Part shown: in pieces, positions 25,951 through 29,901 of the stretch
Layout of the letters: every line of letters starts with the position of its first letter
Position numbering within the stretch: the stretch's first letter is position 1
Assembly (NCBI RefSeq): GCF_947500045.1
Contig: NZ_CANMQQ010000003.1
Span: 248,001-312,000, forward strand
From: an uncultured Ruegeria sp.
GTDB taxonomy: Bacteria > Pseudomonadota > Alphaproteobacteria > Rhodobacterales > Rhodobacteraceae
DNA: 64,000 nt
Direction: 5' to 3'
Made by a program: the position numbers and the translations under genes
The notes under the pieces: model-generated
What the model saw: only the letters and a program-made list of their open reading frames with translations
Database searches by the model: none
What the model was told of the DNA's origin: nothing

Positions 25951-26079
25951 TTATAAGCAATTCTGTGCCTTCATCCAAGCTAAAAGTTTGATAATAAGAA
26001 AAATCATGGCTACGGTGAATCCCAAACAAAATAAGGCCAGAGCAGGATTGTTTCCAAAATGAGCCCCGATTATCTCCAT
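25951..26079 (-). CDS. candidate 42-residue membrane protein
   Basis: An ORF of 42 codons beginning MEIIGAHFGNNPALAL, with one hydrophobic segment of about 20 residues (CLGFTVAMIFLIIKLLAW) and a short Lys-containing tail. Evidence that it is real: a single clean transmembrane helix, a GGACGG/GGAAGG purine stretch before ATG, and the strong minus-strand terminator 55 bp downstream that no other gene can use. Its first codons overlap, in antisense, the first seven codons of the YejA-like gene. No homologue is known to me. Alternatively, the transcript is a non-coding antisense RNA. Confidence 0.45.
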   Translation of the reverse strand: MEIIGAHFGNNPALALFCLGFTVAMIFLIIKLLAWMKAQNCL

Positions 26080-27885
26080 CCCTTCCGTCCAGCAATTGCG
26101 GGAATCGCCTGCATTTTGGCGGCCTCGTTCGCTTCGGCAGAATCGGCCCATGGCATAGCTATGTATGGCGACCCTGCCCTACCACCGGATTTTGTGTCGC
26201 TGCCCTATGCAAACGCGGACGCGCCTAAAGGCGGCAAGGTCGTGTTCGGCAATACCGGCGGCTATAACAGTTTGAACCCGTTTGTGCAAAAAGGCACGTC
26301 ACCCTGGCAATTGCGATTTTGGACCCATGAAAGCCTAATGGGCCGGTCTTGGGACGAACCTTTCTCTCTTTACGGGTTGTTAGCCGAATCAGTTGAGACT
26401 GATCCGGACCGAACCTGGGTCGAATTTACACTGCGGGAAAATGCCGAATTCTCGGACGGAACGCCGGTCACTGTCGAAGACGTGATCTGGTCGTATGAGA
26501 CTTTGGGCACCGAAGGTCATCTGCGGTATCGCGGGCTTTGGGGCAAGATTGACAGCATAGAACAGACCGGCCCGCGCAGCGCCCGGATCACTTTTAACGA
26601 CCCCGATCGCGAACTGGCGCTGATCGCCGGATTGCGCCCAATCCTGCAGAAGGCACAATGGGAGGGGAAATCATTCGCGGATGCCCAGTTGCACGACATT
26701 CCCATCGGATCAGGACCATATGTGATCGATGATTACGAAGCCGGCCGTTTTGTAAATCTGCGCCGCAACCCGGACTATTGGGGGGCAGATATCCCCTACC
26801 GCAAGGGTACGATGAATCTCGACGACATGCGGATTGAATTCTACGGCGACGGCACCGTCGCTTTCGAAGCCTTCAAAGCCGGCGAGCTTTCCGCTGTGCG
26901 CGAGTTCAACGCGGACAAGTGGAACACTCAGTACAACTTTCCCGCAGCTCAGCGCGGCGATGTCGTGAAGACGGAAATCCCTCATCAAAAGCCATCGGGC
27001 ATGACTGGGTTCGTCATGAATACGCGCAAGGCACCGTACGATGATTGGCGCGTTCGCGAGGCGCTGACGCTGGCGTTCAACTTCGAGTTTATCAACGACA
27101 CCATCACCGGTGGCGCGCAGCCGAGGATTACATCGTATTTTTCCGGCTCTACGCTGGGCATGCAGCCCGGACCGGCAACGGGTCGGGTCGAAGACCTGTT
27201 GCAACCCTATGCCGCCGAGTTGCCCCCCGGCACGCTGGATGGATATGAATTGCCGCAGGGTGATGGATCCGAACGCAACCGTAGCAACATCCGCAAAGCG
27301 CTCAAACTACTGGAAGAGGCAGGATGGACAATTCAGGACGGTCAGCTTCGTAATGCCCAGGGTGAGGCCTTCCAGGTTGATCTGGTGATCAGCCAAGGCA
27401 GCCTGAATGTCGTGCAGGATGTGGGTGTAATCGCAGAAATATATGCCCGCGCCCTCGAACGACTTGGCATCCAGTTGACTGTCGAAAAGGTCGATGACGC
27501 GCAGTATACCTCGCGTATCGACGCGCAGGATTTCGATATGACCCCATTCCGTCGCGCACTCTCACTATCGCCGGGTAACGAGCAACGCCTGTATTGGGGC
27601 AGCGAAAACGCCGACACTGCGGGAACGCGCAATGTAATGGGTTTGACCTCTCCAGCAGTAGACGGGTTGATCGATGCGATGTTGGCGTCGGAAAGCCATG
27701 AAGATTTCGTTGCCGCAACCCGCGCTTTGGATCGCGTGTTGACCGCTGGCCGTTATGTCATTCCGATCTGGAGCTTTGATGTCGGCCGTATTGCCCACAT
27801 AAAAGAACTGAGGCAACCCGACACTCTGCCGATTTATGGCGACGGACCTGAATATATGCCTCAGGTCTGGTGGTATCAGGATTGA
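26059..27885 (+). CDS. YejA-like extracellular solute-binding protein (family 5)
   Basis: A 608-residue periplasmic binding protein of SBP family 5. A signal peptide covers about residues 1-28 (ending ASFASA). The family blocks MYGDPALPPDF, LPYANADAPKGGKVVFG, FTLRENAEFSDGTPVTVEDV and GSGPYVIDDYEAGR are seen, and the overall match is to the YejA/microcin C type used for peptides. No permease or ATPase genes adjoin, so it would have to work with a transporter encoded elsewhere. The ATG has no strong ribosome site. Its stop codon overlaps the predicted -35 element of the arsenic operon. Confidence 0.88.
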   Translation: MSPDYLHPFRPAIAGIACILAASFASAESAHGIAMYGDPALPPDFVSLPYANADAPKGGKVVFGNTGGYNSLNPFVQKGTSPWQLRFWTHESLMGRSWDEPFSLYGLLAESVETDPDRTWVEFTLRENAEFSDGTPVTVEDVIWSYETLGTEGHLRYRGLWGKIDSIEQTGPRSARITFNDPDRELALIAGLRPILQKAQWEGKSFADAQLHDIPIGSGPYVIDDYEAGRFVNLRRNPDYWGADIPYRKGTMNLDDMRIEFYGDGTVAFEAFKAGELSAVREFNADKWNTQYNFPAAQRGDVVKTEIPHQKPSGMTGFVMNTRKAPYDDWRVREALTLAFNFEFINDTITGGAQPRITSYFSGSTLGMQPGPATGRVEDLLQPYAAELPPGTLDGYELPQGDGSERNRSNIRKALKLLEEAGWTIQDGQLRNAQGEAFQVDLVISQGSLNVVQDVGVIAEIYARALERLGIQLTVEKVDDAQYTSRIDAQDFDMTPFRRALSLSPGNEQRLYWGSENADTAGTRNVMGLTSPAVDGLIDAMLASESHEDFVAATRALDRVLTAGRYVIPIWSFDVGRIAHIKELRQPDTLPIYGDGPEYMPQVWWYQD

Positions 27886-27930
27886 CGAACCCTCTCTATT
27901 TCCATATTTCATGAAATATGGAAATAGAGA
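27882..27930 (+). promoter_or_regulatory. ars promoter and 38-bp palindromic operator
   Basis: TTGACG at 27882-27887 is a likely -35; a -10 of the type CATATT or TATTTC lies at about 27903-27910. From 27893 to 27930 the DNA is a perfect palindrome with 19-bp arms and no spacer (left arm TCTCTATTTCCATATTTCA). It covers the -10, the expected transcription start and the ATG at 27918, so ArsR binding would block both polymerase and the message start. No ribosome site precedes the ATG. Confidence 0.7.
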
Positions 27931-28768: not shown

Positions 28769-29245
28769 ATGAACATACTGGTTCTGTGTACCGGCAACTC
28801 AGCCCGGTCCATCCTGCTGGAATCGATCTTCAACCATAACGGCGACGCGCGTGTTCGCGCCTATTCCGCGGGTTCCAACCCGACGGGGCGGGTTCATCCG
28901 CAATCCCTGGCGCTGCTTAGTGCCGAAGGCCATGACCTTCGCGATGCCCGGTCCAAAAGCTGGGATGAGTTTGCCGCAGAAAACGCCCCGGAAATGGACA
29001 TGGTGATCACCGTCTGCGGTTCCGCCGCCGATGAAACCTGCCCCGTGTGGCCCGGTGCACCCTTGCGCACGCACTGGGGCGTCGAAGACCCCGCCGCCGC
29101 GTCAGAGGCCGACTGGGACACCGCCTTTCGCACCGCATATGACATTCTGGGCCGCCGCGCCCAGGCCCTGCTGACGCTGCCAATTGAAACCATGGATAGC
29201 GCACAACTTACCGCTCATCTCAAACGTATCGGAGACATCCAATGA
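28769..29245 (+). CDS. arsC: arsenate reductase (LMW phosphatase type)
   Basis: A 158-residue stand-alone arsenate reductase: P-loop CTGNSARS with Cys7 and Arg13, then TVCGSAADETCPVWPG carrying the redox cysteines. It reduces arsenate to arsenite, coupled to thioredoxin or a similar donor. It follows the fusion gene by 26 bp with an AAGG site, and its stop overlaps the aqpS start (ATGA). It is clearly homologous to the reductase half of the preceding fusion, so the operon has two copies of this domain. Confidence 0.93.
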   Translation: MNILVLCTGNSARSILLESIFNHNGDARVRAYSAGSNPTGRVHPQSLALLSAEGHDLRDARSKSWDEFAAENAPEMDMVITVCGSAADETCPVWPGAPLRTHWGVEDPAAASEADWDTAFRTAYDILGRRAQALLTLPIETMDSAQLTAHLKRIGDIQ

Positions 29246-29901
29246 ACGCCCGCCAGTACTTTGCCGAGTTTCTTGGAACAGCCTTCCTGCTGATCGGTGT
29301 CGTAGGGTCGGGTATCATGGCGCAAACATTGTCCGACGGGAACATCGCGCTTGCCTTGCTGGCCAATGCCATCGCCACCGGCTGCATGCTTTATGCCATC
29401 ATCACGACGCTTGGCCCCGTGTCAGGCGCACATTTTAATCCGGCAGTAACTTTGGCTTTCGCCTTGCGCGGCGAACATCCATGGCGCGCTGTTGCGCCAT
29501 ACATGCTGGTTCAGATTGCCGGCGGCATCGTTGGCGTCTGGGCCAGTCACTACATGTTCGACCTGCCGATTCTACAAAGCTCGGAAACATTGCACCGCAC
29601 CGGATCGCATCAATGGTTTTCCGAAATCATCGCGACCCTGGGCTTGCTTTTTGTGATTTTCGGCGGAATTCGGCACAAGCCGGATACTGTACCAGCGCTT
29701 GTGGGGCTCTATATCACTGGCGCCTACTGGTACACATCATCCACAAGTTTTGCGAATCCGGCGGTTACCATCGCTAGGGGCTTTACGGACACGTTTGCCG
29801 GGATATACCCTGCGCATATTCCGATGTTCATTTTAATGCAGATAATTGCTGTATTTATCGGTCACATAATACTGAACTGGCTGTTCACGCCAGAAGAATA
29901 A
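29242..29901 (+). CDS. aqpS: AqpS-type aquaglyceroporin
   Basis: A 219-residue MIP-family channel with six membrane segments and both NPA motifs, at 66-68 (SGAHFNPAVT) and 172-174 (SFANPAVTIARG). In Sinorhizobium meliloti an AqpS channel in an ars operon lets arsenite made by ArsC leave the cell; the same layout here supports that role. It overlaps the arsC stop by 4 bp. No ArsB or Acr3 pump gene is beside it. A terminator begins 39 bp after its stop. Confidence 0.88.
   Translation: MNARQYFAEFLGTAFLLIGVVGSGIMAQTLSDGNIALALLANAIATGCMLYAIITTLGPVSGAHFNPAVTLAFALRGEHPWRAVAPYMLVQIAGGIVGVWASHYMFDLPILQSSETLHRTGSHQWFSEIIATLGLLFVIFGGIRHKPDTVPALVGLYITGAYWYTSSTSFANPAVTIARGFTDTFAGIYPAHIPMFILMQIIAVFIGHIILNWLFTPEE

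Follow-up and report, generated by a model that had tools for sequence, protein, structure and literature searches.

In Rhodobacter sphaeroides the mRNA of the acuR-acuI-dddL operon begins exactly at the AUG, as mapped by 5' RACE, and its promoter carries the elements TTGATT and TATTAT, whose centres lie 35 and 10 bp before that point, with the operator lying over the promoter, according to the portion of the report available to us (PMC3017554). The same portion names lambda cI and Tn1721 tetR as further leaderless repressor mRNAs (PMC3017554). In Sinorhizobium meliloti 171 leaderless transcripts have been mapped, all of them starting with AUG, as stated in the excerpt of that study (PMC3616915). 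Operators of the SmtB/ArsR family are described, in the part of a report that we could consult, as a 12-2-12 repeat adjoining or overlapping the transcription start, either upstream of or within the regulated gene (PMC8790569), and the putative ArsR1 motifs of Agrobacterium tumefaciens 5A do not fit 12-2-12 in the extract of their description (PMC7965956). For AfArsR of Acidithiobacillus ferrooxidans, the cysteines numbered 95/96 are reported, in the accessible part of the paper, to be essential for arsenite binding (PMC8470949). A search of titles and abstract openings in the open-licence PubMed Central literature, supplementary tables lying outside it, found no leaderless ArsR operon.

Here we describe an arsenic resistance (ars) operon in a 64-kb stretch of DNA, hereafter the window, the promoter region of which compares closely with that of acuR. 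In both the repressor gene comes first, a Shine-Dalgarno sequence is lacking, the -35 and -10 elements (predicted ones in the window) have the same layout and an inverted-repeat operator (likewise predicted in the window) lies over the promoter, as far as the excerpt on acuR goes; moreover, R. sphaeroides belongs to the order Rhodobacterales, as do the named relatives of the window. They differ in that acuR is described there as encoding a TetR-family repressor with acrylate as inducer, whereas ArsR and arsenite are predicted for the window, and the acuR operator, TAATAGAC-n6-GTCTATTA, is given no reach into the coding sequence and no long perfect palindrome is mentioned in the portion of the report available to us (PMC3017554). 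The cI and tetR messages named in that portion are leaderless, as predicted for our locus, and likewise encode regulators not needed in large amounts, but the regulators and their operators are unrelated. The repeat in the window has the form of the SmtB/ArsR 12-2-12 repeat, as excerpted, and the same placement at the start; what sets it apart is that it is perfect, that the ATG it overlaps belongs to a gene predicted to be leaderless, and that in one clade it is extended, to as much as 40 bp (locus L005). By analogy, an operator over a leaderless start would belong to a known kind, acuR being a proven leaderless repressor operon. We consider it highly probable, from sequence comparison, that an autoregulatory ArsR operator lies over the leaderless promoter and the ATG of this ars operon, and such an arrangement would extend the proven leaderless-repressor design of acuR to arsenic operons of one bacterial family.

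Materials and methods

Related loci were collected from several searches. A protein search of family genomes at E 1e-30 matched 206 of 295 genomes, some through the ArsC part alone, and 30 loci were taken; from a search of named genome contigs the best 80 of 569 matches were kept; in a genus search all 54 of 54 genomes matched and 30 loci were requested; and three further genera were sampled with 4, 1 and 7 genomes. Loci fetched with the palindrome pattern were also added, together with 60 more stretches from family genomes, which were chosen roughly by score and make up part of the remaining matches. From the resulting 255 loci 16 were excluded (6 from the window's own genome reached via other matches and 10 with ArsC only), which left 239 with a start, and these gave 218 distinct start regions including that of the window. 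The genus-spread subset (n=85) consists of the window, the loci of the family-genome search and the 60 further stretches. The in-frame ATG nearest the homologous position was taken as the start, and other codons were used only where there was no ATG. Neighbour genes were called from ORF length and codon-position G+C, without annotation.

The palindrome and its predicted operator core

The features of the locus are collected in Table 1. The preliminary description had reported a perfect 38-bp palindrome with 19-bp arms, no spacer and no mismatch, and this was exact on re-measurement: the arms at 27893-27911 and 27912-27930, 19 nt each, are 100% complementary. No other spacerless palindrome in the window is as long, the runners-up having arms of 9 and 8 bp. 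When 64 kb was simulated 100 times with a first-order Markov model, the longest spacerless arm reached 7-12, and at the local composition chance would give about 7e-7 arms of at least 19 per 64 kb. The palindrome had also been said to cover the promoter, the start site and the ATG. Within it lie the end of the spacer, the -10, the ATG and what is presumably the start site, but it does not cover the whole promoter, because the TTGACG -35 (27882-27887) sits outside it.

Table 1. Features of the ars operon and its promoter region (positions in the window)
Feature	Position	Strand	Basis
Family 5 extracellular solute-binding protein gene, co-directional	26059..27885	+	SBP_bac_5 E 1.7e-67
-35 element TTGACG, -36 to -31 from ATG	27882..27887	+	TTGAC at -36 in 58/218
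Perfect palindrome, arms 19 + 19	27893..27930	.	palindrome scan and simulations
Left outer arm TCTCTA, outside the conserved operator	27893..27898	.	covaries with 27925-27930 where the upstream gene is at 32 bp
Predicted ArsR operator core, 12-2-12, TTTCCATATTTC-AT-GAAATATGGAAA	27899..27924	.	dyad centre 6.5 bp before ATG
Probable -10 TATTTC inside the operator (-13 to -8)	27905..27910	+	17-bp spacer and consensus of 58 TTGAC loci
In-frame TGA two codons before ATG, made by the operator	27912..27914	+	stop here in 143/208 operator-bearing loci
ATG start codon and inferred leaderless transcription start	27918..27920	+	-35/-10 spacing; ATG 218/218
arsR-arsC fusion gene, 274 aa	27918..28742	+	ORF and domain searches
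Codon 2 GAA, outer right operator half-site	27921..27923	+	GAA 162, GAG 0 of 218
Right outer arm TAGAGA, in codons 3-5	27925..27930	.	covariation with left outer arm
Second arsC (low-molecular-weight phosphatase fold)	28769..29245	+	domain search
Major intrinsic protein gene (aquaglyceroporin, AqpS-like by position)	29242..29901	+	PF00230 E 1.1e-24

When 80 possible dyad centres were scored over 107 loci, the centre at -6.5 from the ATG came out on top (mean pairing 0.634, median 0.263). The consensus around it is TTC-N5-TTC-AT-GAA-N5-GAA, a 12-2-12 repeat whose final half-site falls in codon 2. At least 8 of the 12 half-site bases were matched in 208 of the 218 start regions and all 12 in 111 of them, a descriptive count since 107 of these loci had served to define the half-site positions; without the pattern-fetched loci the operator was present in 185/195, and in the genus-spread subset in 81/85. 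Two of the ten misses (L073 and L090) are start-assignment errors with the site present, while in the other eight (L031, L088, L095, L103, L111, L205, L221 and L248) the operator is absent at the assigned start. In L031, L205 and L248 the layout with the operator on the ATG seems to have been lost or displaced, and these three loci could act as natural controls for leaderless expression. A search of 394 family genomes located the 26-bp core at up to 3 mismatches in 30 and its reversed control in 0, and an ArsR homologue is encoded at all 30 loci fetched by the core pattern. In the window's own genome the only perfect match to the core is the site described here, with 17 sites at up to 3 mismatches as against 6 for the reversed control. 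The locus has two marks of an autoregulated ars operon of the ArsR/SmtB type, namely a winged-helix repressor encoded in the operon and a perfect 12-2-12 repeat at the promoter.

An ArsR site over the promoter and the start codon had been proposed earlier, and the overlap is kept in the 208 operator-bearing start regions; it is the extent of the site that has to be corrected. We predict that the 26-bp core at 27899-27924 is the operator rather than the full 38 bp, the outer 6 bp on each side being unconserved in sequence and pairing well only in a subset of loci. The dyad centred at -10.5 was rejected as the main operator, as it scored only second best (0.566). It bears on a different reading, in which two ArsR dimers sit on overlapping dyads and the long palindrome is a mirror composite of both sites; this second centre is indeed the next best over the 107 loci, and on reading the sequence the inner palindrome holds a mirror image of the -10.5 dyad, but the outermost arms carry no recurring half-site and vary in sequence among species, and we regard two dimers as unlikely. 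The earlier suggestion that the repressor would hide the DNA of the start codon adds nothing beyond the blocking of RNA polymerase. The geometry has other consequences: it restricts the coding sequence at codon 2, and it would place the AUG in a hairpin only in upstream-started RNA.

In four loci (L152, L165, L168 and L169) the operator was noticed ahead of short, apparently unfused ArsR genes, and the operator may be older than the fusion or may have moved along with the ArsR domain.

Start codon, codon 2 and the predicted leaderless promoter

The ATG of arsR-arsC at 27918 lies inside the palindrome, as first described, and is the only sensible start because an in-frame TGA stands at 27912-27914 and the next in-frame start codons are a TTG at codon 20 and an ATG at codon 25. 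The stop, six bases ahead of the ATG, is made by the operator itself and recurs in 143 of the 208 operator-bearing loci, window included. The ATG was found in 218/218 start regions, partly by construction, since our start rule favours ATG. Over these related genes, with kinship uncorrected, codon 2 was GAA in 162 and GAG in 0 of the 218 start regions, while codons 13-40 of the same genes held GAG 180 times as against 121 for GAA; codon 4 was mixed (GAA 35, GAG 27). Codon 2 of other ORFs, taken as control (GAA 6, GAG 2), gave too few cases for a comparison. We see here a probable case of the first residues of a protein being set by a DNA-binding site.

TTGAC was located exactly at -36 in 58 of the 218 start regions, the next commonest offset being represented 5 times. 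In the genus-spread subset it was found there in 9/85; its frequency leans on the neighbourhood of the window. A TTGACG -35 with a -10 near 27903-27910 and a start at about the A of the ATG had been proposed for the window, and we arrived at the same promoter: a 17-bp spacer puts the -10 at 27905-27910, where TATTTC, a poor -10, matches TATAAT at 3/6, and the start is expected 7 nt later, at about 27918. The promoter consensus scanner did not list the TTGACG/TATTTC pair because it demands 9 matches and a final T, the pair having 8/12 matches and a -10 that lacks the final T. On reading the sequence no Shine-Dalgarno-like motif was seen ahead of the ATG at 27918, in agreement with the absence of a ribosome site noted before, so that the gene shows two features expected of a leaderless one, an AUG start and no Shine-Dalgarno sequence. 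Shine-Dalgarno-like 4-mers were present in 8/218 start regions as against 135/380 first-ATG ORFs, a crude control drawn from 107 of the same loci, and the AT-rich operator alone would depress the former count; arsC2 as a further control was found in 8 cases, 4 of which had a 4-mer. The proposal of a leaderless mRNA is well supported by this comparison, with the operator in 208/218 and TTGAC at -36 in 58/218 start regions. Against it, 108 of the 208 operator-bearing loci lack both TTGAC at -36 and the PhoB-box-like element described below, and with TTGAC in 9/85 of the genus-spread set only a minority of the lineages beyond the window's neighbourhood have a clear promoter. For the window, comparison gives good support to an ars operon that is leaderless and represses itself, and such an operon would offer a clean signature in which one operator fixes the -10, the start site, the ATG and codon 2 together.

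The TGA stop of the upstream solute-binding-protein gene (27883-27885) lies inside the -35 hexamer TTGACG (27882-27887), so that one operon ends within the promoter of the next. With that gene close and co-directional, some RNA probably crosses the site, and one may ask whether arsR-arsC has an ordinary leader, the promoter lying further upstream and the palindrome serving only as an operator or as a 3' hairpin for the gene before it. The weakness of the -10 and the presence of TTGAC at -36 in only 9 of 85 genus-spread loci would agree with this. It is nevertheless quite improbable in our judgement, as TTGAC recurs at exactly -36 in those 58 start regions, a ribosome site is absent, and the hairpin lacks a U run and so is not a standard terminator. 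The palindrome as an intrinsic terminator was itself ruled out on this ground: in place of a G+C-rich stem followed by a U run there is an AT-rich stem with no U run after 27930, and the terminator scanner listed none at the palindrome.

A different element, TTCAC or TTCAT near -40, was observed in 42 of the 208 operator-bearing loci (for example L030, L107 and L112). The consensus around it is tGTcAcAAAA-cTTCACTTG, from about 52 to 35 bp before the ATG, and TTGAC at -36 was present in 0/42 of these loci. We take the element to resemble a PhoB box, which suggests that arsenate resistance is under phosphate-starvation control in the species that have it. In this class the transcript could start about 10 nt earlier, with a short leader. 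The element is absent from the window.

Long arms of the palindrome

At least 16 of the 19 pairs are formed at 18 loci, and every one of these has a co-directional upstream neighbour, which is the same solute-binding-protein gene. Fourteen of the 18 are among the 16 loci where the upstream gene ends 32 bp before the ATG (the rest are L006, L035, L044 and L162), and these 16 have on average 16.9 of 19 pairs. Judged from this distribution, the long arms are an addition peculiar to one clade and a trait apart from the operator, occurring in lineages with the solute-binding-protein gene just upstream. Their sequences vary: CTCT/AGAG in the window, CGTT/AACG in L005, whose 20-bp arms bring the palindrome up to 40 bp, TCAT/ATGA in L119, CACTA/TAGTG in L154 and TGCAATC/GATTGCA in L162. 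A sequence-specific reading of the outer arms was ruled out by these differences between species.

As RNA the palindrome behaves differently according to where the transcript begins. A 71-nt RNA across it folds into a 17-bp hairpin of -22.6 kcal/mol (z -4.74) with the AUG in the stem, while the RNA from 27918 has an unremarkable z of -0.34, its AUG being unpaired in the centroid and two AUG bases being paired in the minimum-energy fold. One possible reading, which we hold tentatively, is that readthrough RNA would fold this 17-bp hairpin, bury the AUG and block re-initiation after the stop at 27883-27885, and therefore arsR-arsC would be expressed from no promoter but its own, which is repressed and leaderless. 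The contrast between the two z values speaks for it, as does the presence of the co-directional solute-binding-protein gene at all 18 loci with at least 16 pairs. Folding at -12 kcal/mol or below was likewise observed in 16/16 loci whose upstream gene ends 32 bp away and in 7/69 with a divergent neighbour. The link to orientation is strong in the pooled set, which includes loci fetched by the palindrome pattern and one large clade: strong hairpins were found there in 22/26 co-directional loci within 60 bp as against 7/69 divergent ones; with the pattern-fetched and 32-bp loci removed the figures were 19/59 and 7/62 (p 0.007, uncorrected for kinship and multiple comparisons); and with one locus per genus and the 32-bp loci again left out they were 8/29 (co-directional within 150 bp) and 4/29 (p 0.33), which counts against the hairpin as a device. 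We rejected the direction of the upstream gene as a guide to hairpin strength in general; the effect is clear only when the 32-bp loci are counted.

The pairing of the outer arms was also compared with shuffled and slid controls, all of which leave relatedness in. For outer pairs 15-18 of the 16 loci at 32 bp, 69% of cells were formed as against 43% after shuffling (highest of 2000 shuffles, 61%), while the other 192 operators had no excess in these pairs (30% vs 30% shuffled). When the pattern-fetched L151 and L154 were left out 2/2000 shuffles reached the observed pairing, and when L176 and L177 were left out as well 1/2000 did. In 15 aligned rows the six outer pairs were formed in 84% of cells vs 69% shuffled, and 14 cells had changed on both sides vs 4.7 shuffled (0/500), the slid controls giving at most 5. 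This covariation would fit a conserved RNA hairpin, though template switching can give the same pattern. The 4 pairs that show changes on both sides are no excess over the shuffles (mean 3.0; 158/500), G-U mismatches have no clear lead over A-C (11 vs 7), and outer changes in L175, L176, L177 and L124 are uncompensated. Furthermore, all 16 loci at 32 bp lie inside one 24-row branch of a 31-row tree, with three changes needed on the branch, and since they sit in one branch, ancestry can explain much of the long-arm pattern.

According to the excerpt of a study on the subject, template switching is able to make palindromes perfect, with compensatory changes of several bases as its trace (PMC8794818). 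If replication copied one arm onto the other in this way, the long arms would be a functionless by-product of a strong operator core, a reading to which we give appreciable weight, short of an even chance. It agrees with the outer arms keeping complementarity and not sequence, and with L119, which has two adjacent changes in the left arm and two matching changes in the right arm relative to its close relatives L117/L118. On its own template switching fails to explain why the long arms cluster by one upstream gene end; shared ancestry could do so. We give the hairpin device and template switching about equal weight.

Insulation from readthrough by the hairpin would be a plausible benefit. A palindrome of dual use, serving as the ArsR operator in DNA and as an AUG-hiding hairpin in readthrough RNA, with compensatory changes that reach codons 3-5, is in our view a doubtful proposition; under it the leaderless mRNA would escape the hairpin, because a start inside the palindrome leaves out one arm. 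If the outer arms do act as RNA, a start inside the palindrome would be a simple way to discriminate the operon's own transcript from the readthrough transcript, and if they do not, the locus would be a good natural case in which to test evolution by template switching in bacteria.

Genes of the operon and proposed regulation

In profile searches the ArsR-ArsC fusion matched HTH_20 (4e-10), HTH_5 (1.2e-6) and LMWPc (8.5e-18), the two HTH matches exceeding the gathering score. The ArsR winged helix occupies about residues 8-82 and the ArsC domain residues 117-249. The closest sequence with a solved structure is an ArsR, 6j05 (E 7e-15), with similarity from residue 5; we take this entry to be AfArsR. 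Cysteines occupy residues 95, 96 and 102 of its chain, and C90/C91 of the fusion align to 95/96. Among relatives of at least 200 aa, C90, C91 and C98 are kept in 132/146, 132/146 and 129/146, respectively, and we consider them the probable arsenite-sensor cysteines. The fusion shares with AfArsR, as its best match among solved structures, the C-terminal CC and a third cysteine, the arsenite site as far as the excerpt on AfArsR describes it (PMC8470949); it differs in that the third cysteine lies one residue further on (CC-x6-C) and in being fused to ArsC. Arsenite sensing by the fusion is likely, because the sensor cysteines are conserved and C90/C91 align with 95/96 of 6j05 in the AfArsR numbering. 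In the ArsC domain C120, C196 and C204 are kept in 146/146 relatives of at least 200 aa, which gives three cysteines in an LMWP fold as in thioredoxin-type ArsC; the score of the domain, 83.7 bits, is below the NCBIfam equivalog cut-off of 174.3 bits, and it is thus a candidate for that subtype. By analogy with thioredoxin-type ArsC we assume that these three cysteines have the catalytic roles.

Taken with the operator and promoter described above, these features lead us to propose that a dimer of the ArsR domain of the first gene product would bind the 12-2-12 repeat at 27899-27924, so that the bound site would span the -10, the transcription start and the ATG and reach into codon 2, and the bound repressor would shut out RNA polymerase. 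Arsenite at C90/C91/C98 would free the repressor from the operator, and the mRNA would then start at the A of the ATG and be translated leaderless, probably with a modest output of the fusion. The sequence itself shows the conserved site, its fixed placement with respect to the ATG and to the -35 where that can be recognised, the rarity of Shine-Dalgarno sequences, the constraint on codon 2 and the conserved sensor and catalytic cysteines; ArsR binding, release by arsenite, the precise position of the 5' end and how strongly the message is translated are what we infer.

In some relatives (G067, G149, G189, G024, G130 and G166) the arsR-arsC match was interrupted by a single in-frame stop; pseudogenes, misassigned starts or separate ArsR and ArsC genes are possible explanations in these six genomes. 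Downstream of the fusion, the gene at 29242..29901 is assigned the role of AqpS from its position, as an inference. It overlaps arsC2 by an ATGA at 29242-29245, which suggests that the two genes are translationally coupled.
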